From: Diphasiastrum complanatum
Taxonomy: Eukaryota; Streptophyta; Lycopodiopsida; Lycopodiales; Lycopodiaceae
Direction: 5' to 3'
DNA length: 64,000 nt
Assembly (NCBI GenBank): GCA_029204225.1
Contig: CM055104.1
Coordinates: 44,654,841 to 44,718,840 of the forward strand
The notes under the pieces are model-generated. The model saw only the letters and a program-made list of their open reading frames with translations, searched no databases and was not told the DNA's origin. Position 1 is the first letter of the stretch. Each line of letters starts with the position of its first letter. The position numbers were made by a program, and so were the translations under genes. Of the stretch, positions 24,697-47,394 are shown piece by piece.

Positions 24697-25950
24697 CATG
24701 AATTCCAGCAACCACCGTCACCACTAACCCACTCCACACATCTCCGCCACGCGGTATATCCCCACCTCTTTCACCTATCATCCCTCAATCACCTCCACCT
24801 GCCTTTCATTCATCTCCATCTACCCCTGTTCATGATTTTCTACCCTTTAACCCAATGTCATATCCTAACTCCTCCTTTCAAGGCCAACCCTTGGAGCAAG
24901 GAGCTCAAGCACCAACCAATCCATCAGGCTCTGGTGGTACCAGCTCCCAACATTAGCTTTTTTCTTCCACCGCTTCTAACCTCGTCGACGCCACTAATCT
25001 CCCATTTATTCAACACTAATTTTCTCCTGAATCACAAAGAATTGCTGAAGCTAACCCTTCTCCTCCCTTCTCTCCTGAACCTGATCCTCAAATTCAGCAT
25101 GCGATTGCCTTTGAAGCACCAACCATCCGGCACAGAATCATGCCCATAGAACCAAGCAAGGAGTTGTGTGCCTCATATCCAACCACAAAGGAACGAGGCG
25201 GCTACATATTGCCAGATTTAGACCAGTGTCAAACACATAAAGAAGCAGTCAAACTCCTGGATCCACAACCTCTCTGGCGCCATCAGCTCTTCCTACAAAG
25301 CAAGACCTCGATGGCACGGTATATCGAAGCACCCTCCTATATGCGCACAAATCTTTATTAGTATCTAGTAGTGAGGCGAGAACCGTTTCCTGCCACCAAG
25401 GTCAAGAATAGGATATTTTGGCCCAAGCTCACAGGCATCAATACTGGCAACTTAGTCGAAGACATGGTCACCAACTGCCGTGTATTCTACCAGAAGCACC
25501 ATGGCAACCTGATCACGATGTCAGATATTTTGCGGACAATTGTGGCCTGGTAGCATTTCTGGTAGAACTCAAGGGTTTTTGGGATCGAGGGCTACCCCCA
25601 ATAGCCCTTGATATCAATAAACCACTGCAAATGCAAGAAGACCACATCTGCGTAGCAAGGCTTTATTATTGCGCTGCACTCACTTCAGCCCTGCACGTTG
25701 ATATGGTGGAGCTATGGAATACCCACAACTTTTTACAGGGTATGTTCCATTACTACAAACCAATGCCCTTCCTGAACAAATTACAGTGGCAAATGATGGA
25801 GGACATCGGCACCACAATCTCCCACTCCCGACAACAACAGTCTCACCTCCAAGAAGCACAGAAGATCCAGGAAGCAAAAGGCTTCGATTGGTGTGGGACA
25901 CCGACCACCAATCCAATAAGGAGGGGAATAATATTAGCATCCATGCTAAC
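24697..25950 (+). pseudogene. Unknown protein family, copy 1 (broken)
   Basis: A Pro/Ser-rich stretch (frames over 24,700-24,960, for example SSPSTPVHDFLPFNPMSYPN) is followed by ERGGYILPDLDQCQTHKEAV, LLDPQPLWRHQLFL and YIEAPSYMRTNLY (25,140-25,360). Past a stop comes VVRREPFPATKVKNRIFWPK, then a frame change at about 25,545 into AFLVELKGFWDRGLPPIALD and ARLYYCAALTSALHVDMVEL. It aligns by eye with the long frame at 45,978-47,327 (shared pattern RG-Y-LP, LL-PQP-WR, Y-AP, R-Y, YY). It ends in a 24-A run. I do not recognise the family. Stops and shifts mark it as dead; the A-tail suggests retroposition. Confidence 0.5.
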
Positions 25951-25952
25951 AC

Positions 25953-25976
25953 AAAAAAAAAAAAAAAAAAAAAAAA
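25953..25976 (+). repeat. A24 tract ending unknown-family copy 1
   Basis: Twenty-four A residues directly after the broken gene, then GAGAG. It could be a retroposition tail or a simple repeat. Confidence 0.7.
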
Positions 25977-25995
25977 GAGAGAAATAAAACTCGTG

Positions 25996-26068
25996 GCATG
26001 TGTTTTGTAAGTCCACATACGAGTGTTTGTTAATAAACTTCTGCCATGGCATGTGTTTTGTAAGCCCA
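25996..26068. repeat. 20-bp repeat, copies 2 and 3
   Basis: GCATGTGTTTTGTAAGTCCA at 25,996-26,015 and GCATGTGTTTTGTAAGCCCA at 26,049-26,068. The third copy is identical to the one at 24,500, left of the unknown-family copy. Confidence 0.7.
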
Positions 26069-26209
26069 TGAGTAGAAGCTTAAATAATAATAAAATAGCT
26101 TAACCTTAGATGTAGAACTTAGACTTAGGAAACTTAATATTAGAAATATTTTGTCTTAAGTTTTCCTATAGGCTAAGAAGTTTTGAAGTTCTAAATCCTA
26201 ATTTAGAAG

Positions 26210-27201
26210 TGTTAGATTTCTTATGCTCAGTCTTAAACAAATCGTTCAAAGTAATGAGCATCCTGAAAAACCGAAGGCCGACAACATATTTTTTGGCCTT
26301 CACATTTTTTTCCTTTGAGTTTTTCCTATGACTTAGAAATCATTTTTAGGCACCTTCGCCTTTTTCGTCTTTTTCGCTCCTTAGTGAAAAATGCGACACA
26401 CTGGCCAAGTGGCCAGAATAACTTAGAAATCATTTCTTAAAGGCACCTTTGGCTTTTTCGGCTTTTTCTCTCCATAGCGAAAAATGTGACACACTGGCCA
26501 AGTAGCCAGAATACCTTAGAAATCATTTTTTAAGGCACCTTCGGCTTTTTCGTCTTTTTTGCTCCATAGCAAAAAATGTGACACACTGGCCAAGTGGCCA
26601 GAATACCTTAGAAATCATTTTTAAGGCACCTTCGACTTTTTTTGGCTTTTTCGCTCCATAGCGAAAAATGCGACACATTGGCCAAGTGGCCAGAATACCT
26701 TAGAAATAATTTTAAGGCATCTTTGCCTTTTTCGTCTTTTTGCTGACCGACTTCGCCAATGGATGAGTAACCCTAAAACAGCTGGACAAACAAATATCCC
26801 AAAGGCGGTTGACGGTTACCAACTTTTGTACATATGCAAAGACTAGCATAAATAGCCTTAAAGGCTTGTAAGATATTTCCTCTCTTGTAAATCTCTATAT
26901 TAGCTAAAACAAGCTATGTAAGTGTTAATTTTTTTAATTTCTCTTTTTAATCAGAGTTATCTGTAGCCAACGTTATCACGCTCAGCAAGCTGAAGTTATT
27001 ACTTCAAACGATTGTACTCACTGTTGATATTTTTATCAGAGTGCAATTTTTTCATCTCACTACTGCGTCGTTTATTTGCGCAAACTGGATGAATTCTTCT
27101 ACGTGAATATTTATGCTGCTAATTGTTGCGTTTCTGTTCCTACACGCCTACGCTCTAAGCAACCGAGCCTTCACTGTGCTCACGACCACCGATTTTCGAC
27201 A
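26210..27201 (+). repeat. 5' LTR with internal tandem repeats
   Basis: About 992 bp, starting TGTTAG and ending CGACA next to the primer site. Units of about 92 bp start at CTTAGAAAT at 26,332, 26,422, 26,515, 26,607 and 26,699. Each full unit carries two inverted repeats, TTTTTCGCT-CCAT-AGCGAAAAA and CTGGCCA-AG-TGGCCAG. The unit array lies in the presumed U3, where plant LTRs hold promoter elements. Confidence 0.85.
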
Positions 27202-27213
27202 TGGTATCAGAGC
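27202..27213 (+). other. Primer binding site, initiator tRNA-Met
   Basis: TGGTATCAGAGC directly after the 5' LTR is the standard Copia minus-strand primer site complementary to the 3' end of initiator tRNA-Met. Confidence 0.92.
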
Positions 27214-27343
27214 AGGCATTCCAGTAATCTACATTTTTACTACGGATTATCAGTCTTGTTTCTATCAAGATATCTTTCTAGCAACGCATAGCCAACAGTA
27301 TTCAGACAATCGTTGTTTTTACCAACGATCTAGTCCAACCAGA

Positions 27344-30300
27344 ATGGATCCATCATCCAGTTTATCTCTTATTGACAAACTCGATGAAGATAACTACCAT
27401 CTCTGGAAATTCAAGATGAAGGTTATACTTTTAGCCAAAGAATTGTGGGACATCGTTGATGGCATAGAACTCAAACCAGATGGTGATGAAGTCATCATCA
27501 CCAATTGGAGACTGAGAGATGGCAAAGCATTTGCCATGATCACCCTCAACAGAAATGACACTCAGATCAGCCACATACGTGCTGTTCAGACAGCTAAGGA
27601 TGCATGGGACATCCTAGCAACTCTTTACAACATTAGAAACGTTACATCCAAGCTCCATCTGAGGAAAAAATTCTTCAACCTCAGAATGTCTGAAGCAGAT
27701 AGTGTTTTGAGTCACCTCAACACTTTCAAACATCTTATGGAGCAGATGACTGCAACTGGCTCAGTCATACAAGATTCCGATGCACTCATGACTCTATTAT
27801 CGAGTCTACCTGAAGCCTACAAAAATTGGGTAATGACAATTTCTACCCAGGAGCACCTCACTCTATCAAGAGTAATCTCGCTACTCCTACAAGAGGAGAT
27901 CAAAAGATCAGCATCCTCCTTAGGCTCAGGATCGGATCCTCAAGCTCTGTATTCAAAAAATCAGAAGTTTAGATCCAAGAGATCTACAAAGTCAGGCTCT
28001 ATTGACAAAAAAAGCAACATACAGTCTGGACCAAATTTTGGTTCAGGATCGAATTCAAGCTCTTCATCATTCCAACCTGCGAAGAAACTATTTTGCAGAT
28101 ACTGTAAGAGGACTGGTCACGAAAACAAAGAGTGTCGAACTTTGAAGTACAGCAACGAAAAGAAGAAGCAGTTCCAACAACAAGCACATAGTGCTACAAC
28201 CAATCACTCAAATCAGCAACAACAAGAAGAAGAAGATGAAGCAGCTTTCATGACCAAAGTCGAAGAACAACAGGATATCGATTTCTGGTATCTAGACTCC
28301 GGAGCAACTCAACACATGACTCACCATCGCGACTGGTTCAAGACTATAAGTTGTTCACCCACTCTCAAGTCGTGCAACTTGGAGACAACTCATCACATTC
28401 AATCGAAGGTGAAGGAACAGTCAGGGTTGAATTCAGAAGAGGTGAAGTCAAGTTGTTGTCCAACGTTCTCCACGTCCCAAATCTGACCAAGAATCTGCTC
28501 TCAGTTAGCAGAATCACTAATTCAGGTCGGAGGGTTGAATTCGATACAAAAGGCTGCACAATCCTTGACAAATTCCGGAAGGTTCTAGTCTAAGGAAGAA
28601 GAAGCGGCTATCTTTACAAACTTAGCCATTGCTATTCTTCTAACAGTCAAGCTCTTCACACAACCACTTTTGAATTAACTGATATGTTGTGGCATTTCAA
28701 ACTTGGCCATCTTAACTACAACAGTATTTAGCAAATGTCAGCTCAGAATATAGTACGACCTACCTTCAGTCAGCAAGCCAACTTCTCCATGCGAAAGTTG
28801 TATTATCAGCAAGCATGCTAGAAGTCCTTTCAGTTCAGACTCTGTTCATACATCCAAGGGCTTGCTTGACCTTGTACACAATGACATTTGTGGCCCGATG
28901 TAGACTGCTTCCACAGGGGGAGCTCTCTATTTCCTAACCTTCATCGACGACTTCTCTCGAAGGACTGCAACCTACTATATGAAGAGCAAATCTGAAGCAT
29001 GCAAGTTCTTCAAGCAGTTCAAGGTGTCTGCAGAAAACCAGACCCAGAGGAAGATCAAGGCTCTACACACAGATGGAGGGAGAGAGTACATCTCCACAGA
29101 ACTCAAGGAGTTCTGCAAGGCCAACGGGATACTTCAACATTACACAACCAACTACTCACCTCAGTCCAATGGTGTAGCTAAGCGGAAGAACCGAACACTC
29201 ATCAAAAGTGCCAAGAGCAGGATGGCCCATGCCTCTCTTCCAAAGAAGTTTTGGACAGAAGCGGTTACTACAGCTGCCTACTTACAGAATCAATCCATCA
29301 CCAAAGCTCTGAATGAAAAGACACCTTATGAGGTGTGGACATGATCAAAACCATCAGTCAAACATATTCGAGTGTTTGGATGCATCGCTTTCGCTCAGAT
29401 CCCTGAGGATCTAAGAAGAAAGCTAGATGACAAGGGCAGGAAAACGATTTTCATTGGCTATTTCCAAAATCACAAGGGATACAAACTCTACAATTTGGAT
29501 ACCGAGAAGGCATTCACCAGTAGAGATGTCATTTTCGTAGAAGACTATTTCCTCGCCCACAAAGGAAAAGCTGTTGATAATTTTGACTCACGGATCGAGC
29601 AACCAGTCAATTTCGATCCAGAGAATCAATTGCAGAATCTCGACGCTAACTCAAAAGTTGAGCCAGAACCTCAACGAGTCAACCCACATCAGAGGACCAA
29701 AGTTCAACCCATGAGGTTGAACAGGTCCAGACAGCCTCCATCCAGATTTATGGATGATCCGGCCTGTAGGAACCAAACACAGTTGCTGAGGCAATGTCTA
29801 CTCCTGATGCTGACCAGTGAAGAGCAGCGATGGACACCAAATTCGATTCTCTTATGGAGAATCAAACATGGAAACTCATTGAGCTGTCAAAGGACCGAAA
29901 CCCAATTCCATGCAAATGGATATTCAAGGCGAAGTACGACGCTGAAGGCAGGCTAAATCGTTACAAGGCCAGGCTAGTCGCCAAAGGCTTTTTTCAGATT
30001 CCAGATCTGGATTATTCAGAAACCTTCTGCCCAGTCGTCAAACATGCTTCGATCCGCCTCCTTCTCTCCTTTGCAACTGCAGCAGATCTGGAAGTTCATC
30101 AGATGGATGTTCAGACCGCTTTCCTCAATGGAACCATCAAAGAGGAATATACATGATGCGGCCAGAGGGATACGAACTCAATGGCAAGCAATAGCACCTT
30201 GTATGCAAAATTCACAGGGCGCTCTACGGGCTAAAACAGTCACCCAGAGCCTGGTTCCAGAAGATCAATGCATTTCTGATAGAGAATGGTTTTACTCCAA

Positions 30301-31355
30301 ACTCAGCAGACTTGAATGTTTACTTCAAATCTGTATCAAAATACTTCATCATCATCACTCTCTACGTAGATGATACACTCTTATTCAGTAATAATCTGAA
30401 TCTGATGAAAGATACAAAGTGCATGCTGGCCCAGAAATACAAGATGACTGACATGTGTCCAACCCACTATTGTCTCGGAATCCAAATCCAATGAGATCGA
30501 CCCAGCAGACTGATCTTCATCAGTCAGCAACGATATCTCAACAACGTGCTTGAAAAATATGGAATGGCCAACTGCAAACCCAGTCTCTTTCCACTCGACT
30601 CTGGACTTAAGCTATCAAAGGAACAGTTTCCTCAAACTGAGGCAAAAAAGAAGGAGATGAAGCGCTACCTGTTTCAATCCATCATCGACTCACTGATGTA
30701 CGCAATGATCTGCACGAGACCAGACCTTGCATATTCGCCCAGTACACTCAGCCAGTTCCTATCAAATCCAGGCATAGCTCATTGGAAAGCGCTAACAAAG
30801 GTCATGAAGTACATTCAAGCAATGACAACTCTCAGCATCTGCTATGGAGGCAGCCAAAATGCCAATATCCTTGAAGCCTACACATATGCGGATTGGGCAG
30901 GAGATGTCGACACCAGAAAATCAACTTCTGGATTTGTATTTTTATACAACCAAGGCCCAATCTCATGGAACAGCCGGAAGAAGACCTCAGTTGCATTATC
31001 ATCAACAGAATTCGAATACATAGCTGCCACAAATGCAACCAAAGAGGCGATCTGGCTTAGGCAACTGCTTGCAGACCTCAATCTTGCACAACCACTTCCT
31101 ACAATAATCTATTGTCACAATCAAAGCACAATAGCGCTATCTCTCAATTCGAGATTTCACTCTCGAAGCAAACATATAGAAATCAGGTATCACTACCTTA
31201 GAGAGAAAGTGCACAGTAAGGAAGTAGTTTTGATTTTCTGTAGAACAAATTACATGGCAGCAGATTACTTCAAAAAGGCTCTATCAAAAGAGCAACATCT
31301 CAGATTTAACAATATGTTAAATTTGAAGATTAAAGTTTTTCAGAATCCACATTAA
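27344..31355 (+). pseudogene. Copia gag-pol, frameshifted
   Basis: Starts at the ATG reading MDPSSSLSLIDKLDEDNYHL. Gag ends in a CCHC knuckle (CRYCKRTGHENKEC). Protease DSGATQHM is at about 28,295, then the frame changes near 28,350. The integrase has HNDICGP, LHTDGGREY and NGVAKRKNRT, where the third catalytic residue Glu is Lys (codon 29,180-29,182). A stop splits the integrase C-terminus at 29,342. RT reads CKWIFKAKYDAEGRLNRYKA, VHQMDVQTAFLNG, a break at 30,155, and YVDD at 30,363-30,374. RNase H has YADWAGDVDTRKSTSGF and SSTEFEYIA and ends FQNPH at 31,355. Several stops and shifts plus the catalytic substitution make it non-autonomous. Confidence 0.92.
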
Positions 31356-31362
31356 GGGGGAG

Positions 31363-31847
31363 TGTTAGATTTTTTATGCTCAGCCTTAAACAAATCGTTC
31401 AAAGTAATGAGCATCCTGAAAAACCGAAGGCCGACAACATATTTTTTGGCCTTCACATTTTAGAAATCATTTTTAGGCACCTTCGCCTTTTTCGCTCCTT
31501 AGCGAAAAATGCGACACACTGGCCAAGTGGCCAGAATAACTTAGAAATCATTTTTTAAAGGCACCTTAGGCTTTTTCGGCTTTTTCGCTCCATAGCAAAA
31601 AATGCGATACATTGGCCAAGTAGCCAGAATACTTTAGAAATCATTTTTTAAGGAACCTTCGACTTTTTTGACTTTTTCGCTCCATAGCGAAAAATGCAAC
31701 ACACTGGCCAAGTGGCCAAAATACCTTAGAAATCATTTTTAAGACACCTTTGACTTTTTCGGCTTTTTTGTTCCATAGCGAAAAATGTGACACACTAGCC
31801 AAGTGGCCAAAATACCTTAGAAATCATTTTAAGGCACCTTCGCCTTT
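31363..31847 (+). repeat. Truncated 3' LTR
   Basis: Begins TGTTAGATTTTTTATGCTC after the purine tract AAGGGGGAG and repeats the array (CTTAG-type starts near 31,460, 31,540, 31,632, 31,725, 31,816). It breaks off at 31,847, losing about 500 bp. The next bases contain an 8-bp inverted repeat CAAGCACG...CGTGCTTG. Confidence 0.85.
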
Positions 31848-32479
31848 AGGCAGCAGGGGGCACCGGGGCCAAACATCAAGCACGTGCGGCCCCGTGCTTG
31901 AATTGGGACACAGTGTCCATTTTGGTCCCAGTTTTAACATAGCCAGACGTTTTTTTTTATTTTATTTAAAAAAATTAATTTTTTATTCACAGACCGGAAA
32001 GAGTAAGCAAAGGGTGAATAAAAGCGTGAGTTGGAATTTGTACTATGAACTTGGAATTTGGAGGAATTTTTGAGAACTTCGATGGTATAGATTAATTCAA
32101 CTCAAATGTTAGAGATTTCGAAAATCTCTAAGAAACAAATTCATTCCAATGAAATCAATCTATTCTTGAACAATTTGATCAGGAAGTGGATGGTCTTCTT
32201 GGAGGAATAACCTATGGTATGGGACGGAGGCTATTCCAAAAGAAAGATTTGAAACTATCTGGTTCGGGTTGACCATAGTACGACCGTAAATCTAGAATGA
32301 TGCTAAATACTATTGGTCCCAAAAGGGTGTTTTGTCAGAAATTCGAGGTATAGGTCATGACCCCTAATGGATATCTCAAACATACAAAATCGGAAACCCT
32401 AAAAGCTATTTCTTTATTCTGAGAATATATTAGTGAATTTCTTGACACTGATTAACCCTATTTCATGTGACATTGATTA
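31848..32479. other. Unassigned DNA after truncated LTR
   Basis: Starts GC-rich (GGGGGCACCGGGGCC) and becomes AT-rich. No coding relic recognised. Confidence 0.4.
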
Positions 32480-32797
32480 ACCATATTTCATGTGATTCCA
32501 TTGGGCTCACATACACTTGGTCATCCAAGGACACCATTCAAGAATGTAGATTTAACATCCTTCTAATGTAGCTTCCAACCAAAATATGTAGCTCAAGCAA
32601 CCGTAAGCTATAGTGTGGTCCACTTCTTTATTGGTGCAAATGACTCCTTGTGATGTTTGCTCACCTTCGGTCACAATGTCTCATAAATCTTTTTCAATCA
32701 AACTAATCTTCATATAGAACCTCCATACATTGTAATTGGAAAGTTCGTGAAGTTTGTTTGTCTCTCCAAGCACACAGTACTTGTCCATATTTGCCAT
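32480..32797 (-). mobile_element. Copia gag-RT deletion relic
   Basis: Minus strand from an ATG at 32,797: MANMDKYCVLGETNKLHELS, then NYNVWRFYMKISLIEKDL and DIVTEGE (Copia gag start). It is followed within about 100 bases by QKDVKSTFLNGVL-type sequence of the RT palm, with shifts. Everything between gag and RT has been lost. Confidence 0.65.
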
Positions 32798-33983
32798 TGT
32801 TGCTTCAAAATGCACGAAAACTTGGAAATTCCTTCATATAAAGGATGTCAAAGCACTCTTATCTTCACAATAACACCTTTCTCCAAGGATACCAAACAAT
32901 TTATAGCCAAAGAAGGCTCTTAACTTGGCAATGTTGTGAGGAAATAATGAATGTAGCACATTTTGATCCTCTTTTCTTTCAAGCACTAGAATGCTCGAAG
33001 AAATCACTCACAAACACTTTGTCCCCTAAAAAAGCGTTATTCTAAATGTGCACAATAACTTTGACCAAAAATGGTCAAATTTGGCCTTCATAACAAAGTT
33101 ATTTATCCAAGGTTGACTAAGACACCTAACAAATGGCCTTTTCGAAGTTGTGACTTCATAGATGCCTACGTATAGACAAAGTCCTTGACTCATCTAAACA
33201 TAACTATCTTGAAGTCCAGCTAATCCTTGTTTACTTAAGACCTTTTTGGCTTGTTATCTATATTTAAGACACTTTGAGAGAACCGAATTCATTTTTACGC
33301 CTAATAATCTCCTCTTAGGCCCAAAAAAGCTTACAATAGATATATTATGCACTTTTGAGTGCTTAGGTATTTTTTACACATGACATGCATACCATGTAAT
33401 AATAAAAAGAAAGAGGATTTGTACTTTTACTTCCACTAAAATATAAAGACATTTTATTGTCATGAACACAATTTCGTTTTTTATGCAACCACAACACACA
33501 AAATTGTGCCTTAGCACATACAATAGGATTACTTATACACAAACAAAAGCGTGCACTATAGGTGCAGAAGCTTTCCTAAATGCACATAAGTACATTTGGC
33601 TTTATGGAAAGAGAAGGGCCTCAAAAAGCATACCCATTCTTTGTAAAATATTTGCATGTTTCTTGAAATTGTGTGAAACTTCAAAGCTGTCTGAGTGGTA
33701 TGAAAATTGCCTAGAGTTCAAGCCAACGATTTTTGGCAAATGTATGTGCCCAACTGCATATCAACTGGTGTTGGGACTTTCACATGGAATGTTCTGCAAG
33801 TAGTTACCCGTACAAATATCAATGTTTTCCACAACTATCAAAAAATCAATCAAATTTGTAGCCATGAAAGCATTCCTCTCATGTTCCAACAATTATGCAA
33901 GAAAGTTTGCACACATATTAAGTACCCCTACCACGTGTATGTTTCAAATGTGGTAGGTTGTGGAGAGGAAGAGGATGAGCGCA

Positions 33984-33988
<5 letters not shown>

Positions 33989-34049
<61 letters not shown>
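33989..34049. repeat. (GA)n microsatellite
   Basis: About 60 bp of uninterrupted GA in the intergenic DNA between the Copia relics and the E3 ligase gene. The surrounding 32,800-34,960 shows no gene on either strand. Confidence 0.95.
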
Positions 34050-34050
<1 letters not shown>

Positions 34051-34964
34051 ATTGGTATTAAGTTTTCAAAAAGTAGATTGTGAAAGTTAGTTTAGAAGAT
34101 CATTGTGAAAAACACTTGTAACAATTCCATTATGTTCAAGTTGGTAATTTTTCTTCCTATAATAGTCAGTTAACCTTAGACTATTTTCAGTCTAATTGAA
34201 ATAGAATCATAGGGCTAATAATTTGCAGTATTGAATGACTACCTCAATACACCCTATGATGTAACTATGCCTGCAGGGCCTTTACTTACATCCTCAAATT
34301 CCATGCTCTTTTAGTGATTTCAACTTCGTTGTTTCCATACTGAACAAATTCCTTCTGATTGATTTTCCTTCAAATAACTCCTGAATAAAATCTCTTCACC
34401 CAAATTTGTAGGATTGGACGATTATCAAGGTATTGATATTAGATGGCTCAACTAGCTTTTTACTGGAAACACACTGATGATATAGAGTCAGAGGTATATT
34501 CACATCATTGCTTCAAAATTTGCATGCAATTAGGGTTAGCACGTTTGAAGTGCCCAAATTGATTAATAAAAGCACCCTACTGCTGATACGTCACTTGTGC
34601 TATTACAGTTTCTCTCCTTAAGTGGTATGGTAATTTTTTTAATGGTATACGTTCCTACCCATGTGCACAAGTGAAATCTAACTCCATATGAACACATGTT
34701 GAGTGAGGAAAGATGATGTTAGTGGCTAGGCCATATTTCTGGAAATTTCGTGATCAAATTGTGTTGGTCACGTTAGCATATGCCTGCTGTAGCATAAGCT
34801 TACATAAAAGTCAGCTGCCAACAAATGAGAGATTCTGGTTCAAAAATCGTGTGTCCGGGGAAATTCAGAAGATTACTTGGAATTTTTCTCAATAGGGTAT
34901 AAAGTAAACCTTTCCTCTGTATATTCAGTTGAAAGAGAGATTATGTACATTGAATATATTGATT

Positions 34965-37900
34965 TCATTGACCTTGCAGACGACACATTGAGCATCCTAG
35001 ACAATGTTTTTGGCCATTAGGAGCATGGACAATTCTTAGTGGACACCAATTAGGGCCTTTACACTGAAAAGGCAAAAAATGTTCTTGCAGGTCCGGTCTA
35101 ATCAAGTGGCAATTTTCACAAAAATTAACTCCTCCATAGCAAATGTACATGGCTGGCGAGCAACAAAATTGGCATTTGAATTCTAGGTATTCTTTCCCAT
35201 GACCATTTTTGCAAAAATGCTTCACTCCAGCACTGCAGCTCCCGCACATTAATTGATTAGCATCCATTCTTTGGCTGATCAACAAAAGGGAAATATGTCA
35301 ACTCAATAGAAGCATCACTAAGCCAGAAAAGCCTGATAATTTTTTTTTGCATCATGCAAGAATTGTAACAAGATTTACTTTCAGGACTTACTCTGCTTGG
35401 ATCCCACAGTTACGAGCTCCCCCAAAGTATGGTTCACCACACTTGAAGCACAAAAAATATTGATATATATGCACGGCATATTCTGCAGGTCTTCCTTCAA
35501 AGGTGCCCCCAGGCATAAGCTCCTTGCTATTCTTTAATGAACTGTCTGTCTTCAGCCGTTTCAATGCTTTATCTTTTACCTAAAACGGCAATTGCAAGCT
35601 TTAATTTTGACCAGAAAATAAGAGTGGAAAATAGAATATTAGCATTATTAGGAACGGGATTGCCTGCCCATTAAGAGCCCTTACAGCGTTTTCCCCTGCA
35701 GTATTCATCATCCTGGAATGTATACAATAGGTAAAGGAATCATACCAATTTCTTTATGGATAAGGGATGCTGCATGCACACATCCAGATAAGTGTGCTTC
35801 ATGAGTTCAGAACACTGTGGACAGTTAAGGTAGCTGAAGCTGATTTCAAGACCAGGCCATCCTCCTGCAACTTTCATTTTGGCACAATGGTAATGAACAA
35901 TGTGTCCACATTGCAGTTGTATTGATGGAGCACAATGAAGGGATTCCACAGCACAGATGGTGCATAGATCACTGGCTGCAGGTAGAAATCTTGCTCGACA
36001 ATGAACATCTCTTTTCCGACAAGCATCCTAATTTAGCACATGTATACAACAGTAAGGTTGTGTGATAAATAGCCTCTCTAGAAGCTGTGTGGTAGCTTAA
36101 ATAGAATTTGTCATATGCATTCAAAATGGCAAGGATTAATTGAAAAAGTTGCATAAGGATTACACAAGAAAAGAGTTTAGATGAACGGAGATTCTTGAGT
36201 GCAAGCAGCATTTGGCATAACTTTTGAATTCTGTTCAGCTTTAGGAAAAACATAAAATCTTGATAGTTATTCACTAAGACAAATCTCATCTAACTTGGTA
36301 AAGGTGAGGAGGCGAAAGTTCTCTCTTGTTAGTCAAATACTATTTGCTAGAGCACTCAATGAATTCTGTCCACAAAGTGTTGCGCCACTTTTATAACTGT
36401 ATGCGTTGTCTAGTGGGAAGCAAATGAGCCACTTTGGGGATTCTGTCCACTAAAATGAAGATAATTTGCAATCCATTATTTGATTGACTTATCACAAACT
36501 CCATGGTAATGTGTGACCATTTTCTTTCTGTCATTGCCGGAGTTTGTAAAATTCCATAAGGACGATAATTGAAATTTTTGTTTATCATTTTTGCATGATT
36601 GACACTTGGTTACAAACTCTAAAATGTCATGTCACATTCCCCTCCATAAAAACCTATGATTAATCTTGCCAAAAGTTCTGTTGAGTCCTTGGTGACATCA
36701 AATTGAAGAACTATGGTGATTCTGTAGAATTTGCGTCTTGAATTCAGATTGTAAAATTAAGAGTATTCGATTCATTGTAGCGATTGATTTATCATTTGAT
36801 TCATCCTGTACTGGATCTCACAGCCATAGCTTTGTAAAAGTTCTCTCGACCACCTTTTGCTCTGGAGTTACACTGGTTTGACTCTAAAAGTTTTCCAAAG
36901 AATGGTGATCAGGTAAGAACCAAGAATCTATTGACATAAATATGATGGCGCCATTTCTTAATAGCATGAATTATGGCCAACATGTCCTTCGCCCTGCATA
37001 AGCTATCACACATTGCTATTGCCTTAAAGATATAGTTCCCAATCCTTTCCAAAAGCATCAGTTCGATTATGAATGGCATGAAAAAATCAGGAAAGCATAA
37101 CAAAGTGTAGAAGTCATGACTTGTTTCAGCTTCTCAAATGCCACTTGCTTGTTCGTTCCAAGCAAATTCCCGTATCTTTAAGAGGTTGGCACAATGCGTG
37201 ATAAATTTTCTGTAAAATGAAGTCAATGCAAGGAATGCCTTCAGTTGTGTTGCACTTGACGCCAGTTCACAATCACCTTTACCTTTGCAGGATGCACCGA
37301 AATGTTTTGGTCACTGATAATTTGAATCAAATACTCCACTTGAGGTAAGATAAAAAAATGTGTCTGGTGAATTTAGCAAATGATTGGTGCTCTGTGAAGA
37401 TTTCCAGAGTGGCCTTAACATGCTCATAATGCTCTTCCTTATAATCGATGCACATTATAAGTGTTCCATCTTTGTTCCTTACTACAAGCATAGGAGCTGC
37501 ATATGACGATTCAATGTGTCAAAAATTCTTTTGCAAAAGTTCCTCAATTTTCTCCGTAACCTCCTCCCTTTCCACCATAGATAGTCTATATGGAGGCTGA
37601 TTGATTGGCTTCGTGCCCCAATCAAAGTAATTTCATGTACCACATAGTTGTTTCGTGGAAGATTAAGTGGCAATTCTAAAAACACAGGATCAAATTGTGG
37701 TAAGACAGTATCCTTAATCTTACTTTGAATTAAGTCATTAAATCTACTTTATTGTGGAGGTTTTTGACTCCCTCCTAATGCCAATATGTCGTGCTTGATA
37801 GGGTGCACCTGCAGAAGAAAAACAATTCCTTACTTCTTGAATTCCGCCCTAAACTCCCTAATTGTCATAAGATCAATTGTGTCTAAATTTAATTCCACAC

Positions 37901-40900
37901 AATATGGTAACCTTTGTTTCATTGTGGAACTTCAAAGAATGCTACTAAAGATGGACATGAACTTCCACTGATTTTCCCATCCAATCACATCTTAAATAAC
38001 ATCTGCTGGTCCTAACCATAGAATTTGAGAACCGTGGAAGGTTCACCATGGTTCTCAGAACCGTACGGTTCACCAAAAAACTAAGGCTGAACCGTGGTGA
38101 ACCGTCCAATTAATTGATTAATTATTTTTTAATTTCCCACCCCCAAACATAGCCCAAAAATATGCAATAAAAGGCCAAAAAAATCTGTGAAATCTGTGTA
38201 ATGCCAAAAATCTGTGAAATCTGTGAAATCTGGGAAATCATTTGAATCTGTGAAATCTGTGTAATGCCAAAAATCTGTGAAATCTGAGGACCATTTGTGA
38301 AATCTGTGAAATGAGGGCCAAAAATGCCTTGTGAGGGGTTTGGGGGGGAAAATGGAAATTAATTAATTAGAGGAACCGGTTCATGAACCGTGGTACGGTT
38401 CACCCCACGGTTCTGAGAACCGTGGGTTCTATGGTCCTAACTCAAATCTACTAAAATAGACTCATTACTACCAGATTTAATACTAGCATCCTTACAATAC
38501 AGTTTACTCAAAAGTTTGTCCCCACTAGCTAGCTACCTGTACTTACAACTTTTCCAAACTCCCTCAATCCTTATCTCACTCCTTAAATAATTTTCTTATT
38601 CATAATATTTATGAAATTGTCAGTATTACCACTATCTAGAAGAAAACTTTCTCTTTAGATTTGAAGGGCCATGGACTATCTGCAAGAGTCTCTTTATTTG
38701 TTTCTCAGAATGAGAATTAGGCCAATAGTTGATCCTCCCACTTTCCTTGCTTAGCATTCTCTTCATGGTCAGGTGATCATTTATCTCCACATAAAAAAAA
38801 AATGTTCCTCTTTCTTCTTTACTCTATGAAAGCTTGTGAAAGTTCAAGCAGTTTTCAAGTACCTCAAGATATTTAGATGGATTAAATAATTTTGTAGGTC
38901 TGACATCCGGGAACCTTGTAAAAGAGCTTAAAGTCCCAACATTGGCAAATAGTTGTGATCCTCCTGCTGCAAGATTTCTTTGGTTGAAAAATTCTTCGAA
39001 ACTTTCTTAAGAATTGTCAAAGATTTTACCCATGTACTTGGCTTTGAAAAGTTTTGCTGGTTGTAATGCTTCCTTAAATCCAAGCCTTGAGATATTGACA
39101 TCCACCGCGATTTTTACATCTAAATGATGGATGCATTTGGTGATTCATCTTTTATCATTCACTCCCTTCGTAAAGAGTAAAATTTTCTAGAAATGCTGAA
39201 TATATTCTCTGATGTAATGACTCGATGCTAGGTCCACGGTATGTGGCCCCTGTCGACGCATATCCCTCCAACATGAGTCTTTGCTAGATGGAAAAGGAAG
39301 TCACAAAGGTAGAACAATCTTCCGATGGACACATCCACCTTAGTCTTATTGCCACCCGAAATGATTGCAAATAGTATTGTCTACCCCTAACAGCAGCCCT
39401 GCCACCTCTAGAAGAAGAGGGGCCAACTACATCTATATGTGGTGTGGTGTAGATGTGCCAATCTCTACCCCTGTCTCACCTTGAGTCGAGGTGAATGCAC
39501 GCCTACCTGAAGAAACTAATCCTATTGCAACAAACAGAATAAAAAAACATTCAATCGCTGCAAATCACAATGCACATTCATCATTCCATATCTACCATAT
39601 CCCTCCAACATGAGTCTTTGCTAGATGGAAAAGGAAGTCACAAAGGTAGAACAATCTTCCGATGGACACATCCACCTTAGTCTTATTGCCACCCGAAATG
39701 ATTGCAAATAGTATTGTCTACCCCTAACAGCAGCCCTGCCACCTCTAGAAGAAGAGGGGCCAACTACATCTATATGTGGTGTGGTGTAGATGTGCCAATC
39801 TCTACCCCTGTCTCACCTTGAGTCGAGGTGAATGCACGCCTACCTGAAGAAACTAATCCTATTGCAACAAACAGAATAAAAAAACATTCAATCACTGCAA
39901 ATCACAATGCACATTCATCATTCCATATCTACCATATCCCTCCAACATGAGTCTTTGCTAGATGGAAAAGGAAGTCACAAAGGTAGAACAATCTTCCGAT
40001 GGACACATCCACCTTAGCCTTATTGCCACCCGAAATGATTGCAAATAGTATTGTCTACCCCTAACAGCAGCCCTGCCACCTCTAGAAGAAGAGGGGCCAA
40101 CTACATCTATATGTGGTGTGGTGTAGATGTGCCAATCTCTACCCCTGTCTCACCTTGAGTCGAGGTGAATGCACGCCTACCTGAAGAAACTAATCCTATT
40201 GCAACAAACAGAATAAAAAAACATTCAATCACTGCAAATCACAATGCACATTCATCATTCAAATTTCAAAAGCAAAAAAATCAACCTTCAAACTTCAAGT
40301 CACAAGTGTATAATTCTCACCTGCAACTGGAGGAATAATCTCCTCTCTCCAAACAACTCCTGGTCTCGCAATCGTGCCCAAGAGCCCTGGTGGTGCCTAA
40401 AGGCATGCTCCAATCCCGTAGCCACACAAACAGAGGTGTACTCGAATACACACCGGACCACTTTTGTGGCTCACGTGACGATAATTGCATGTCCAGATTT
40501 TTGTGCTCGAGCTACTGTATGCTGAAGAAGTTGTGACATGATCCCATACGGGATCTCTAGATCTCACCATGACTCCCAACTCCTCACTCCTAAGTTCTAA
40601 CTCCCAACTTCTAGCATTCCTCTCACCTCTATTACCTAAAACTAAACTCCAACACTCCTAACTAGTCATTTAGTAGCTACTAACCACTCTACTAGCTAAC
40701 ATTAAAATCACACATCTCTAAGCTCCTCCTCTCCTATTCGCTCTCCTAACTCTTGACTCTTACCTCTCTCCTTCATTTACCCAATACTCAATTTCTAAAC
40801 ATCTAACTCCCAACTCTCTAATAATCAAGCTTCAACCTCTCTCTCCTCTCTGCTCTCTTTTCTCCTCTCCTTTCTTTTCTCCTATGTTTCTCCTTTCTTT

Positions 40901-43129
40901 CCGTTGAAAAGAGGTGCACAAAAAAGTTTTGAAAGAATCGCGAGGTGAGTCCGATTTGGGGGGCCAGTGGTAGATTTTTTTTCCCAATCCTAATCATTTC
41001 CGATTCGAATCGGGACCGGTCAATTCATTGATGAATCATGATTCATTCGCCAACAAATCGTGATTCATGGAAACACTACTCAAGACCCTCAATAAAGGTC
41101 CTAGGACCCCTTTTGGCCTCCAAAGGGGACTGACCTAAACTGCCTCAGTAGTCTACTATTGCACCATCAGGTTTGCTTAGAGCCAAAACAAAAGGGGGTG
41201 AGGAAGAAGTCGGCAAAACATTTCAAACGTTGGGAGGATTTTTCAAACATTTGAAATGCGTTTTAAATGTTTCACATTTGGACGTTTTAAATGTTTCATT
41301 GTCATTATGCATGCAACTTACAGGCTCACTACAACCTACAATAGAAGATGCAGTTTAAAGACCTCATATTTTTCAATAAACAACAAAGAACTTGAAATTT
41401 CTCAAATAAATTTAGGAAGGAATTTGAAATATTCTTCAATGTGGCAATCAAACGACTTATCCAGAAGCACATTTTCATAAATTCTCCATGTTTCTAGGTT
41501 GGCTCTGTTGAGATTACAAACTCGCCGACGGACTCTTATTTATCCGGTTTAGATACTCATTCTTCACTAAAAAATCATAAGAGCTTCTTGTATCATTGTT
41601 TACAAAAAAAGATTGTATTGTTGCAATCCTACTGCATATTCCACATATAAAAGCCTTTTTCCAAAGTTTCCAAAGAAGATGTCAAATGAAAATGTATCAC
41701 TTTTCTTGTGCTCCAACTCTAATTCAGATGAACTCATGACGAGAGAAACAATAGCAAGTCTAACTACTTTAGCACACGAACACTTCACAGAAGATCATAC
41801 AGACATTTGCCAAGACCATGAAACTGATAACTTTCCATATTTACAAAAACAATCCAGTTACAAAAAGTTTAATCTTCAGGACAGGTTTTTGTTCCATACC
41901 TGTAGGCAAGGTAAGCAATTGAGCTCACCTCGTACGCCCCCACATGGATGACCACAAACCAAGGTACGTGTGCAAGCCTCTTTCAATTTCTTCCTGCACT
42001 CTTCTTCCCCACAAATAGAAGCAGCAAGCCTTTGCACTGCAACTAGCTCACTTTTTTCCACACACCAACTAATGTCAACAGCCTCTTTTTCCAACCAAAT
42101 CTGCAATTCTTTGACAGATTTTGCAGAATCATCTGAAGCTTCTCGTTTTCTTGCATATACAGGATCCTGACAATACTTGCATCTAGCACTGTTTTTCTCT
42201 TCCAGAAGTTGCTCACAAGTTCTCCCTAAATGGTACGGACACTCCAAGCAAGATCCACAAAAGTTGACATGACAAATAGTACATCTGAAGCGGTTAACAG
42301 CTTTGTGGAGCAGTGCAGCTCTTGATAAAGGCCTTCTATTGCAGTCTAGCTCTGTAAAAGGAACTGTCCTATCTAACTCAGGGACTCCAGAAAGGGCTAA
42401 ACCTGGAGGCAGCTCACTGGCAACTTTTTCAATCACAACATTGCAACCAGGGCATTTCACATAATCGGTAGTGGATTCAAAAAGAGCTAGGTTAGCTGCT
42501 TCCTGCCACTGCTGAAATGCTTTTGGTGCAAGGTGCTGAGCGTCTGCAAGGGAAAAAGTTCCTGTACACGATGGAGAAGGACAAGGAAAGGCAACTCTAG
42601 CTCTGATGGAGTTGGCATCTTCGATCCTCTCTATGTAAGAAGTCCCATTTGATGTGGGCATAGTATTTTCTCCTTTCTTCAAACTCAAAGAATCATCCGA
42701 GCCTGAAGAACAGACAGCCTTTTTTGTTCTATTCACAGTGATTGAAGCAGAACCCAAAGTATCATTTGGAGTGCATGTTGATGCCGTTGTTAGCAAATAA
42801 TGTGTATACGAGCTGAGACAAGGCTTACAAAGCAGGCAAGAGCAACTTAACTCCGTAAAAATCAGGTCCAAAGAAACACTCCCACTACACAGCCTACAAA
42901 AAAACTGAGGATCCTCCTTAGCTTCAGGCACACCAGACGAGGCTATGCTTGAAGTTGACACAAAAGCGTAAGGGATTGGATCAGCCTGTATAAAAGCAGT
43001 CGCCCAATCTCCATCCTCATCCTCAAATTCTCCTTTCACAAAATTTAGTAAAAATTCTGCTTGTAAGGTAGACACCTCACTTGGTTTGGCAATCTGCTGC
43101 AACACAACTTCTGTTTGCAACAGGTCCAT
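34965..43129 (-). CDS. Hybrid RBR/RCR-type E3 ubiquitin ligase, four exons, 669 aa
   Basis: Exons 43129-41900, 36027-35746, 35579-35392 and 35274-34965; introns are GT-AG in phases 0, 0, 2 and the joined frame is open. Seen: a RING1-like set (C78, C81, C96, C98, C101, C104, C183, C188) and a complete IBR (C226, C229, C283, C286, C291, C294, H300, C305) as in RBR ligases. Next comes a CGHPCGGVRGELNCLPCL motif, then RING C432-C435-C450-H452-C458-C479-C482, and a tandem-cysteine region with YFGGARNC (C562) and YICYGGVNFCENCH (C612, H623). By my recollection of human MYCBP2, the last two match relay Cys4520, Cys4572 and His4583. The RBR catalytic RING2 is absent. Predicted role: relay-cysteine ubiquitin transfer, perhaps to hydroxyl residues. 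Intron 1 (5.9 kb) is full of transposons. The start codon is the first ATG; an upstream exon cannot be excluded. Confidence 0.82.
36391..37690 (-). mobile_element. Ty3/Gypsy pol relic
   Basis: Minus strand, 5' to 3': an RT-start-like piece (PLNLPRNNYVVHEITLIGAR, 37,685-37,482), an RNase H-like piece (KDMLAIIHAIKKWRHHIYVN, 37,103-36,909) and an integrase core (GILQTPAMTERKWSHITMEF and IIFILVDRIPKVAHLLPT, 36,588-36,391). The order fits Gypsy. Many stops. It lies in sense in the E3 intron. Confidence 0.75.
38016..38434. mobile_element. MITE with terminal inverted repeats and 6-bp target duplication
   Basis: A 419-bp element with perfect ends CCATAGAA / TTCTATGG, directly flanked on both sides by TCCTAA (38,010-38,015 and 38,435-38,440). 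Subterminal GAACCGTGG and GGTTCTCAGAACCGT motifs occur in both orientations near both ends. The centre is an AAATCTGTG-rich repeat. No transposase is encoded. Confidence 0.85.
39261..40260. repeat. 337-bp unit, three tandem copies
   Basis: Copies start at TATCCCTCCA at 39,261, 39,598 and 39,935; the third ends at about 40,260 (326 bp). They are almost identical: CGCTG versus CACTG, and CTTAGTC versus CTTAGCC. The unit includes GTGGTGTGGTGTAGATGTGC and a GTCTCACCTTGAGTCGAGGTGA inverted segment. It lies in the E3 intron. Confidence 0.95.
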
Positions 43130-45109
43130 CTTATATCTTGATCCAGTAAGAAAGAAGCTATTCCAGTCTCAGGCGAATTCTGGGAGAGCTTGTTGTAGCT
43201 CCAATAAAAAAAATCTACAAATTGAATGTTTTGTTAGCAGATTTCTCATGAACCACTGCTTCGGCGGATTTCATATGAACAATAGCTATGCAGAACATAT
43301 GAAAGCCCTAATTTCTGACGTAAGCAGACGCAATACTCCAGGAGTTGATGGTGCTTAGCTGAGAAGCCTAGGAATAAGAAAGCAGGAATTTAAGTCCATA
43401 ACGTAATCCTCTTAGATCAATCATGTGTTCACAGATGTTCAGGGTATTGATTAAAGACCTAAAAGGGGTTAAGAATTGCAAACAGAATTCTTCAACAGAC
43501 ATGGGCTATAATAGGGGATGGCAAAACAGGAGCATCAAAATCATTAATTCCTTCTCACTTTGATGGTAGCAGGGCAGAAACCCATGTACCAGAATGGCGC
43601 AATCACGAAGTGCTTTCCTTCTCACACATCAATCTTCAAAAACACAAGTGATTCAATCTTCAATACAAAGGCAACCAGAGTTGCGAAAGTGATTGTCAGC
43701 AACCTTTGAGCTTCTGATCTGTGCACAAATTCTGCCCAAACAAGCAGCCAGCCCCAACCCACCACGCGTATTTGCTCTCCTCCTTCCTTGCTTACTTGTA
43801 AAGGGTGAGGAAAGAGCAAAGAAGGAAGGCGGAAGGCGGAAGGCGGAAGGGCTTCTTGCGATTCATGCTTTTTTGGCTTTGCTTTGCTTTTAAGAAGATT
43901 TTATATTCAGCTGAACCGAAGGAAGACAAGAAAAAACGCTTCATAAATATGCATGTGTGTGTGTGTGTTTTTTTTAGCTTTATTGGTTGCACTTTTATGC
44001 TACATTGAGGGAGTAAGTGGGCTTGGCTTTAATAACTAGGCTTACATGGCAAAGTTGGGAATCCTCTTAGGGCCGTTTCGGACTAGGTGCAACTCCCTTT
44101 GCCCTCTGTTTTCTCTTGTCGCTCATTGTTTTTTAATCTCGCCAAATGAATTCACGGACTAGGTGCAACTCCCTTTGCCCTCTGTTTTCTCTTGTCGCTC
44201 CTTGTTTTTTAATCTCGCCAAATGAATTCACGGGCAATGGACCCTCGTTCTTTTCTCCCTAGACCAACGAGAGAACTCCATTTTAAATCTAGGATGTACC
44301 GGGGAATGTAGTGTGAAATGGGTCTTAGAGTCTATTTCCGTAGCTAAACCCAATCCATGGTTGCATCTGTTGGATTTCTATTCGAAATCAATCGTTAAGG
44401 TGTTTGCTGCAAAGCTTTACATCTGTAAAGTACTCAGGGGTCGCAACGTCAAAATACCTTAGAGTCCAATTTTAGGGTTGAAAATGCATGCAAGGGTCAA
44501 AATAGCCTGGAGTTGAAACTCAACTCGACTCAGGTCAAAATTTAATATTGACTTGACTTGCCAACCCAACGATTCGATTCGACTCGACACTCAATTTTTA
44601 GAGTCAAAATAAAAAAGGATCGTCAAGGTCGAAATAAATGGTCACCTTCAACCAATAATGACCTTCTTGTAGATCTACACAAATTCTTTCAACGGACGTT
44701 CTACTACAATTAACCATAGATGAGAGGAAGTAGTGACTACTACTAAGTAGTCTTATAAATCAATTCAGGATGTAATTAACATTTTTATATAAATAAAAAG
44801 TCCATTGCCTCCATTAGGAGGGGCGCATGGCACTCTTCCAAGAGTGCAAATGATACCCATTGTACATTCATGTTTTCTATAACAGTTTCATAGTAGCCAA
44901 TGTTTCTACCATTAGTGAATCTCAGTAGCTAGAGATTCTATCTTTGGTGAATTAACCCAATGATTGTTGTGATGTTATTTTTTGTACATCCAGTGATTTA
45001 TGTATTGAGTCTAGTTGCGCTCCATCACAACTATTTTGCATATTGCTATCATAAGTTTATTGTTTAATCTTGGACCGCCTTAACGGGCCTTCAGCAACAA
45101 CTCCACCAG
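43130..45109. other. Upstream region of the E3 gene, no other gene seen
   Basis: Should hold the promoter and 5' UTR of the minus-strand E3 gene. Clear TATA or motif evidence was not found. It includes a short AGGCGGA tandem repeat (43,820-43,850) and the 76-bp duplication listed separately. Confidence 0.4.
44079..44230. repeat. 76-bp tandem duplication
   Basis: Two head-to-tail copies beginning CGGACTAGGTGCAACTCC at 44,079 and 44,155, differing at about one position (GCTCATTG versus GCTCCTTG). Confidence 0.9.
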
Positions 45110-47394
45110 ATGCTCTCTGAAAGAGCTACTAAGCAATCTCGCGGCCCACCGATGGCGGGGCTGCAGGCCTTGACTGATCAGGTGGCGCAGCTGAACCAAG
45201 AGAGAGAAAAAGAGAGGAAAGAGAGTCAGGAACTAGTCCATCAGTTGACCGGCCAGCTCAAGAAAGCAGAGCAAGCAGCTCAATATCACCAACAGCACGT
45301 ATAAACTTTCTATTAGACCGTTTTTGCATCTAGCAGCTGATTGTAACGGGAGAGTTGTTCCGCAATATTCCTGCTCTCTTCTGCATTCATGTTCTTCTAT
45401 CTCCCTTGCCCCATCAGGAAGCGCGCCGAATATTACAAGGACCACTCTGGTCGTGTGCTGCAAACTTACCAAGATCAGAGAAGGCTTAATGACGATGAGC
45501 TCCACACTAAAGATACCGAGCTGGCCACCCTACATGGCGCGCTCCAAGAAGATGAGCAAGCGCTCCAGGCAGCAAAAGGCCAATTAAGAATCCTCAAAAA
45601 ACATTTCAACGCCATTCTAGAGTTTTCCACTGCTCTAGATAGTAATTTACCTTTTATTTTTCAATATTTGATTAGACTAGCTTTTTATTATTTCTCTCTA
45701 CCTTTCCCGGCTTCCCCCCTCTCTAATTCGTATCTCATTCATATTTATCAGATTGCATCGGAGGCCAATAAACATATATTTTTGTTTTTGTCGTCCTTAT
45801 TGGCTTTATCCAGGTTAAGGATTTCGGCTATTTTTGTGATATTTTCAAAAATCCTGCGTTCCGATTTGTAGCCGACCTTTGTGCCATCATTAATTTTCCA
45901 CACGATCGACGCGTCCAATTGGAGCTAGATCATATGCATCAACTCCCCCCTCCCCCCCCCCCCCCCCTTCCGCCCTCTTGGTTCCACGTTCGTTTATCCC
46001 TTCATCTCAGAACACCAGCAGGTATGGTATGCGCCAGAATACCAACCAACAGGTTCAGACAGGCCTTCTGATGCCCTTGCAAAGCATATTAAACACTGCC
46101 ATACCGTCGTCGCCACTTCGCGTCCTGTATTATGACTGCCACCAATATCATCCAGCCACGCTCATCATTTGTTATAACGCGACCTTGGCACATTATAATG
46201 CCATTGTCCAAGATCCATCCATCAAGCATCTGTGCCAGATTTCTGACTTTTCATTCATCGAATCTGCCTCCACATTTGACTACCACCAACTTCAGCTAAC
46301 TTTTCCTCACTTCGACCTCCAAACTGGAGGAGACCGAACCTTTGACCAAGATCTTCAGTACGCCTCACAGGCCGATGACACCTTCTCCCTTACAATTGAT
46401 TCTAATATGCCCTCTCTCGAGCTCGCCACTCCTCCTCATGCCATCTCACCATCTCAAGCAACTTCACCACCTCGCGCCAATTCTCCTCCTCATGCTTCTT
46501 CGCCACCTCTCACCTCTTCTTCACCCATCAAATTCGATCCTCCATCCACCTCCTCAGTTCCTCCCAACCCTGTCGACAATCTTGCTGACCTTGTGGTGGT
46601 ACACAAGCACTGGTACCACAAAGTCTTCTCGGTACCTGACTCAGAGCAGCCGGCCCTCTTCAAAAGGAAATATTCAGACATCACTACCAGAGGCAGCTAT
46701 ACACTACCAGGAAAGCTCGAGGAGCTACTCAAAAAGAAGCCAGCCGATATCCTTTCACTCTTGCATCCTCAACCAGAGTGGAGAAAGGCGGCACTTTTAC
46801 ACAACCCCGAGCTCATCAAAGAATATCTTACGGCTCCGACGGCGTTACGGGAAGATCCAGCATACCATTTGCTGCCCCGAAGACGGTCATGGTCTGCACT
46901 CAAAACTCCAAGTGTAGGAGCTTACAATTGGCTGATCATTAAGTCTATGAAAGGTTGGAGCACAATGGTCGATTTCCAAAGAGCCCTCAACCGATTCCTC
47001 ACTGATGCGGCTAATTCACCAGACCCGATTGTTTTGGAGGCCTACTACAATGTGGAGACCCTTCTGACGGCTGCCAAAGTCAAGACCAAGTGGTATTTCT
47101 ATTTTGGAGAGTATTGCTTTGACCCCAGTCTGACTTTCAAGACGACAGCAGTAGTGGATCAACTACCTCTATACCGGACCTACCATCGACTATCGTCCAC
47201 ATCATTTGTCAATATAGCCCGGTTGGAAAGATGGTATACTACACAGTTTTGGAAAAACATGCACCCGACGTTCGGCCCAATTCGCTCACAATCCATCCAT
47301 CGCAGCCCCGATTTGTCCGCACGGTAGCACAAACCCATCGCCAACTTCGCGACACCGAAGATGCCCAGGGCAAACAGCTGAAAAAGGGTCAATA
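45110..47394 (+). CDS. Unknown protein family, copy 2 (coiled coil plus conserved domain)
   Basis: Unrecognised gene, probably spliced. Coiled-coil segments come first: TDQVAQLNQEREKERKESQE (45,110-45,304) and, after a likely intron ending CCCCATCAG, YYKDHSGRVLQTYQDQRRLN and TKDTELATLHGALQEDEQAL (45,420-45,640). A segment VADLCAIINFPHDRRVQLEL (about 45,868) leads into a C run (45,946-45,967) where the frame changes. A 449-codon frame, 45,978-47,327, then carries a Pro/Ser-rich linker and a folded part with LVVVHKHWYHKVFSVPDSEQ, TRGSYTLPGKLEEL, LLHPQPEWRKAALL and YHLLPRRRSW. Just after it another frame reads RTVAQTHRQLRDTEDAQGKQ, so the true end may be near 47,394 after a shift. It resembles the broken copy at 24.7 kb. 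Exon limits are uncertain and the function unknown. Confidence 0.5.

Follow-up and report, generated by a model that had tools for sequence, protein, structure and literature searches.

A Diphasiastrum complanatum gene that probably joins an RBR-derived RING1-IBR region to a MYCBP2-type RING-Cys-Relay module

The RING-Cys-Relay (RCR) mechanism of ubiquitin transfer reportedly goes back to two original papers, Pao 2018 and Mabbitt 2020. In the available excerpts of the sources cited here, it is described around one protein, MYCBP2 (PMC9527308, PMC13061254), which a 2022 review presents as the first RCR example (PMC9527308) and a 2026 survey of human E3 ubiquitin ligases files as atypical (PMC13061254). 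As these excerpts have it, the RING of MYCBP2 recruits the E2 (PMC9527308), ubiquitin passes from the E2 to a cysteine on a mediator loop and from there to a second cysteine (PMC6769291, PMC9527308), a histidine serves as general base (PMC6769291), the protein has a Cys-His-Glu triad (PMC9527308), and a phenylalanine pocket selects threonine (PMC6769291, PMC9527308); MYCBP2 carrying C4520S is catalytically inactive (PMC12664034). Beside HECT, RBR and RCR enzymes, the RZ-finger E3s RNF213 and ZNFX1 form another transthiolating class (PMC9527308, in excerpt); the likeness to our protein would be one of transthiolating chemistry, and we claim no sequence relation. Here, we analyze a 64,000-nucleotide stretch of the Diphasiastrum complanatum genome (hereafter the window, C13:44654841-44718840 of a 1.745-Gb assembly in 5,176 contigs; unprefixed coordinates are positions in it) and identify a minus-strand gene, known here from genomic sequence alone, that probably is intact and encodes a single-chain E3 in which an RBR-derived RING1-IBR region without RING2 is fused to a MYCBP2-type RCR module.

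Like MYCBP2, PAM, Highwire and RPM-1, the predicted protein has a RING followed by a tandem-cysteine domain, at 39-41% identity, with both relay cysteines, the catalytic histidine and the eight RING ligands. Unlike those giant proteins, it is 669 residues long and carries a RING1-IBR in front, and unlike PHR proteins (PAM/Highwire/RPM-1), with their PHR and RCC1-like domains, it matches no Pfam family anywhere in its 669 residues at E values up to 10. It further departs from MYCBP2 in having glutamine for the triad glutamate and in partly changed pocket phenylalanines. With RBR E3s it shares a RING1 cysteine pattern like that of RNF144A and a RING1 end and IBR homologous to RBR proteins of the same genome (the L021 locus among them), but it has long stretches within RING1 and IBR, and neither a RING2 nor, with it, the catalytic cysteine of that domain was found.

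The gene model consists of four exons, 43129-41900, 36027-35746, 35579-35392 and 35274-34965, that have GT-AG borders and join in frame into 2,010 bases, giving 669 residues and a TGA stop. Splice sites, frame and translation thus agree with the joined protein of the original prediction. The exon 1 frame (open reading frame 41876-43168, 430 codons) is the longest stop-free frame listed in 33000-45500, where the runner-up has 174 codons; its start ATG at 43129 follows an in-frame stop by 13 codons, with A at position -3 and G at position +4. The parts of the model are as follows (slashes mark exon borders):

41900..43129, minus strand: exon 1, codons 1-410, with the N-terminus, RING1, IBR, a lone CxxC and the Cys-rich knuckle; donor CAG/GTATGG
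36028..41899, minus strand: intron 1 (5,872 bases), holding decayed retroelement pieces as well as a tandem repeat of 3 x 337 bases; a RING2 was not found
35746..36027, minus strand: exon 2, codons 411-504, with the RCR RING; acceptor AAATTAG/GATG, donor ATTG/GTATG; supported by the MYCBP2 alignment
35392..35579, minus strand: exon 3, codons 505-567 (the last in part), with a linker and the start of the tandem-cysteine domain; acceptor TTTTAG/GTAA, donor GCAGA/GTAAGT
34965..35274, minus strand: exon 4, the rest of codon 567 to codon 669 and the stop, with the remaining tandem-cysteine domain; acceptor GATCAG/CCAA

The identity of the C-terminal half is carried by its homology to MYCBP2. When the joined protein was compared with PDB sequences, residues 427-665 matched the human MYCBP2 RCR chain 5o6c at an E value of 5.5e-48 and a second MYCBP2 RCR chain, 6t7f, at 8.8e-48; the next match was the RING1 of RNF144A, at 0.01. 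Identity to the MYCBP2 module is 39% by MAFFT, and in a global alignment 95 of the 231 aligned positions are identical and 27 of the 33 MYCBP2 cysteines and histidines are kept, with all eight presumed RING ligands aligned and identical. Exon 2 alone drew the Pfam family zf-RING_2 at an E value of 0.021, below the cut-off. With homology this strong and both relay cysteines kept, the prediction of a MYCBP2-type RCR module in this half stands, and by homology we infer that the module may be equipped to dock an E2, relay the thioester and transfer ubiquitin into an ester. Its features, together with a knuckle just before it, are:

41906..42013, minus strand: Cys-rich knuckle, C373-C408 (CGHPCGG ... 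CLPC), directly before the RCR RING
35812..35964, minus strand: RCR RING, C432 C435 C450 H452 H455 C458 C479 C482, from the global alignment
34983..35450, minus strand: tandem-cysteine domain, C548-C664, interrupted by intron 3, from the MYCBP2 alignments
35406..35408, minus strand: C562, putative upstream relay cysteine, aligned globally with MYCBP2 C4520
35253..35255, minus strand: Q574, at the place of what we take to be MYCBP2 triad glutamate E4534, from the global alignment
35139..35141, minus strand: C612, putative downstream relay cysteine, aligned globally with what we take to be MYCBP2 C4572
35106..35108, minus strand: H623, putative catalytic histidine, aligned globally with what we take to be MYCBP2 H4583

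The MYCBP2 numbers C4572, H4583, E4534, F4573, F4578 and F4586 all meet residues of the type expected, in the same register. Two features of the alignment speak against an unaltered MYCBP2-type module. Of the Cys-His-Glu triad at the second site, the cysteine and histidine are kept and the glutamate has become glutamine (Q574). Of the three pocket phenylalanines, F4578 is kept as F618 and the other two differ, F4573 being Y613 and F4586 probably L629, at a point where the alignment is gapped. Since the comparison is with the triad of one protein, which may or may not define the family, we keep our claim at an RCR module with an altered triad. Possibly the Cys-rich knuckle belongs to a longer form of the RCR module; compared with PDB sequences, it matched three unrelated chains and no relative. 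A comparable CGHxCGG...CLPC stretch presumably precedes the RING of MYCBP2 directly, but we do not use it as evidence.

The N-terminal half resembles the front of an RBR protein. Two regions can be delineated:

42566..42898, minus strand: RING1-like region, C78-C188, matched by phmmer to the RNF144A RING1 at E values of 0.006 and 0.01
42215..42454, minus strand: IBR, C226 C229 / C283 C286 C291 C294 H300 C305, from a sub-threshold Pfam match, the same-genome RBR profile and alignment

Within RING1, 78 residues separate C104 and C183; in the IBR, whose ligands form a C6HC set, 53 residues separate the second ligand, C229, from the third, C283. We scored these regions against two profiles, in each case beside 1000 shuffles with cysteine and histidine held in place. 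The animal profile was built from five RBRs, three of them compared with PDB chains and the other two being RNF144A and RNF19A. Residues 73-326 reach 24.5 bits with it, higher than every shuffle (maximum 17.7), while its own members, when left out, score from 28.5 (parkin) to 82.6. The same-genome profile was built from nine machine-cut RBR segments, chosen by the animal profile among the loci of a genome-wide IBR search, with 17 matches reduced to 12 distinct ones and to nine once near-identical ones were removed, the window gene not included. With this profile residues 170-326 score 41.1 bits and residues 73-326 score 34.6, again above all 1000 shuffles (maxima 19.7 and 22.0, respectively). 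The best pairwise match is to the L021 locus, with 28.7% identity over 122 residues and an E value of 5.1e-6 within the nine-sequence set, and the excised segment 170-334 draws the Pfam IBR family at 21.9 bits, below the cut-off of 24.3.

A number of results weigh against this assignment. Taken alone, RING1 scores 12.7 bits with the animal profile, a value reached by 23 of 1000 shuffles, and -2.3 bits with the same-genome profile, most of whose nine segments are without a RING1 front, a value reached by 562 of 1000. The IBR alone scores 15.5 bits with the animal profile (4 of 1000 shuffles as high), and one of nine shuffles with fixed cysteine and histidine also drew a Pfam IBR match, at 15.8 bits. 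The full-length chain was not reported by the animal profile, nor, as noted above, did the whole protein match any Pfam family; the IBR segment matched five PDB chains, none of them an RBR (best E value 0.016); and a whole-genome IBR search returned 38 places, 32 over the cut-off, with the window gene not among them. An AlphaFold2 model of exon 1 made from the single sequence had a mean predicted local distance difference test score of 32.5 and was discarded. Judged by its sequence, we hold residues 170-326 to be an RBR-derived RING1 end and IBR; the front of RING1 on its own is a weak assignment. The predicted RING1-IBR therefore survives as a unit, its two parts together scoring above all shuffles and its C6HC ligands being complete, but its RING1 alone is not separable from shuffles. 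The predicted order, RING1-IBR and then RING and tandem-cysteine domain, checks out.

What an RBR enzyme would carry next is missing. A RING2 profile of five members, three of them compared with PDB sequences, gave at best 5.7 bits over 285 reading frames of at least 20 codons in 34900-43200, whereas RBR loci used as controls reached 45.5 and 35.7 bits; inside the protein its best match, at 5.9 bits, was the IBR itself. The minus strand of the large intron likewise contains no RING2-like cysteine pattern, two open frames with five or six cysteines being without it. The predicted lack of RING2 thus checks out, and no RING2 exon hidden between the two halves was found either; the profile search covers frames of at least 20 codons, so that a RING2 split over very short exons could have escaped it. 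With no RING2 found the RBR triad is incomplete, and the protein falls outside the definition of an RBR E3.

Searching the species' own genome with the 669 residues returns only this gene and one further copy, in eight matches, four each; stops were counted inside six of the eight, where the match extends into an intron. The second copy, at C13:45585638-45593799, has all four exons letter-identical and lies within a larger repeat, in which window 24930-44460 recurs 0.9 Mb away at C13:45575601-45595130 (a 19,534-base alignment at 99.94% identity). The repeated stretch reaches the edge of the fetched sequence, so this length is a lower bound; the repeat is either a recent duplication or assembly redundancy. 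At E values below 0.01 the human RCR sequence finds three exons, in order, in each of the two copies (4.2e-12 to 1.3e-6) and no other place, six further matches lying above 0.3; the only RCR detectable in this genome is thus this gene with its duplicate. A PHR domain search gave no match in the genome, and the control genomes were silent too, so absence of the domain is not shown by it. Scans of viral contigs and prokaryote genome contigs found no relative.

Two explanations would deny that this is one intact gene. Under one, two adjacent genes have been misjoined: exon 1 would be an RBR fragment, exons 2-4 would be an RCR gene, and the 5.9-kb stretch between them would be intergenic; the large gap with its retroelement debris, and a gene model drawn from genomic DNA alone, would allow this. 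Nonetheless, exon 1 stays in frame up to a consensus donor, past which its frame would reach a stop after seven codons. Exon 2 begins in frame at its acceptor, and from there to the RING no in-frame ATG occurs. Both halves lie on the same strand, their GC contents by codon position are alike (0.49/0.47/0.35 in exon 1, 0.50/0.43/0.35 in exons 2-4), and the parts stand together in both genome copies. These points support the single gene originally predicted, and we regard a misjoin as highly improbable. The other explanation, a decaying, unexpressed copy left by recent duplication, draws on the repetition of at least 19.5 kb, including the whole gene, at 99.94% identity 0.9 Mb away, since such redundancy could relax one copy. 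Yet the 669 codons run without stop or frameshift, the exons are the same letter for letter in both copies, and the 99.94% identity may equally be assembly redundancy, which leaves decay very improbable.

For the fusion protein that we prefer, we propose that the RCR RING would dock a charged E2 (UBE2D/E-like), that ubiquitin would pass to C562 on a mediator loop and then to C612, and that H623 would activate a hydroxyl acceptor, yielding an ester bond to serine, threonine or another hydroxyl, while the RING1-IBR would act as a non-catalytic front end that is regulatory or binds substrate or ubiquitin. Alternatively, as the original prediction suggested, the RING1-IBR might load the RCR module, with RING1 binding E2-ubiquitin, the IBR holding ubiquitin, and the thioester passing to C562, which would stand in for the absent cysteine of RING2. 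That RING1-IBR has been kept although no RING2 was found would fit such loading, as would the hydrophobic residue between the first two RING1 cysteines (C78-R-L-C81), a feature of E2-binding RING1s of RBRs. Against it, the RCR module retains a complete RING ligand set of its own, and because the MYCBP2 RING recruits the E2 (PMC9527308, in excerpt), the protein could do without a second E2 site; we think loading improbable. The broader idea that RBR front and RCR module are linked in mechanism, with two E2/ubiquitin-binding units feeding one two-cysteine relay that replaces the RING2 cysteine in a plant hydroxyl-directed ligase, seems to us doubtful. A somewhat different possibility, unlikely but to be taken seriously, is that the RCR chemistry has diverged, making the protein slow, directed at an acceptor other than threonine (serine, sugar or water), or a ubiquitin-binding pseudoenzyme. 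Q574 at the triad glutamate, and Y613 and, in the gapped stretch, L629 for pocket phenylalanines, point this way, but C562, C612 and H623 are all kept. The first relay cysteine of MYCBP2 is not known to have a structural zinc role, so conservation of C562 suggests relay. Even with the relay intact, the glutamine-for-glutamate change and the altered pocket lead us to expect that acceptor preference or rate differs from MYCBP2, and the former could slow or redirect the last step.

Several features of the surroundings and of the genome searches stand apart from these questions. The large intron holds three head-to-tail copies of a 337-base unit (39259-40260, 99% matches) and, at 36391-37748 on the minus strand, decayed retroelement-like pieces on the same strand as the gene, one of which (36909-37133) gives RNase H-like matches below the Pfam cut-off and two of which give none. 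Outside the gene, a Copia-type retroelement at 27107-29956 has gag, integrase and SH3-like domains spread over separate frames; Copia-type elements are common in plants. The frame at 30495-31355 has no Pfam match, and a 727-codon open frame at 61013-63196 matches the tRNA pseudouridine synthase family PF01416 towards its end (48.2 bits), its long N-terminal part showing no Pfam match. tRNA and Rfam scans of the window found none. Across the genome, many IBR matches are crowded on contig C22, at 30.7-31.7 Mb and 7.58-7.76 Mb, which suggests local expansion of RBR genes. A search for chlorophyll a/b-binding proteins gave 37 matches, all over the family cut-off, which together with the intron-bearing genes marks the genome as that of a photosynthetic eukaryote. 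In this search as in the IBR search several matches come in pairs of equal score; together with the 99.94% repeat, these pairs indicate that recent duplication, or redundancy of the assembly, may be common in this genome.

The original prediction held that no RBR-RCR protein had been described, and the titles and abstract starts of the open-access literature agree: among the matches listed they contain no plant RCR or RBR-RCR protein, and no open-access paper joining 'MYCBP2', 'ubiquitin' and 'land plants' was found. This negative is no proof of absence in print, and sequence databases may hold unnamed orthologues. A survey of plant RING proteins does not use the word MYCBP2 (PMC6118397), and in the excerpts available a review of plant N-degrons names RCR only as a class (PMC11668491). 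A 669-residue plant RCR protein that stands apart from the giant animal host protein would point to a module of greater age and mobility than its neuronal setting leads one to expect. So small an RCR protein would also serve biochemistry, making ester-linked ubiquitin in plants directly testable, and its natural change of glutamate to glutamine would provide a ready-made test of the triad.

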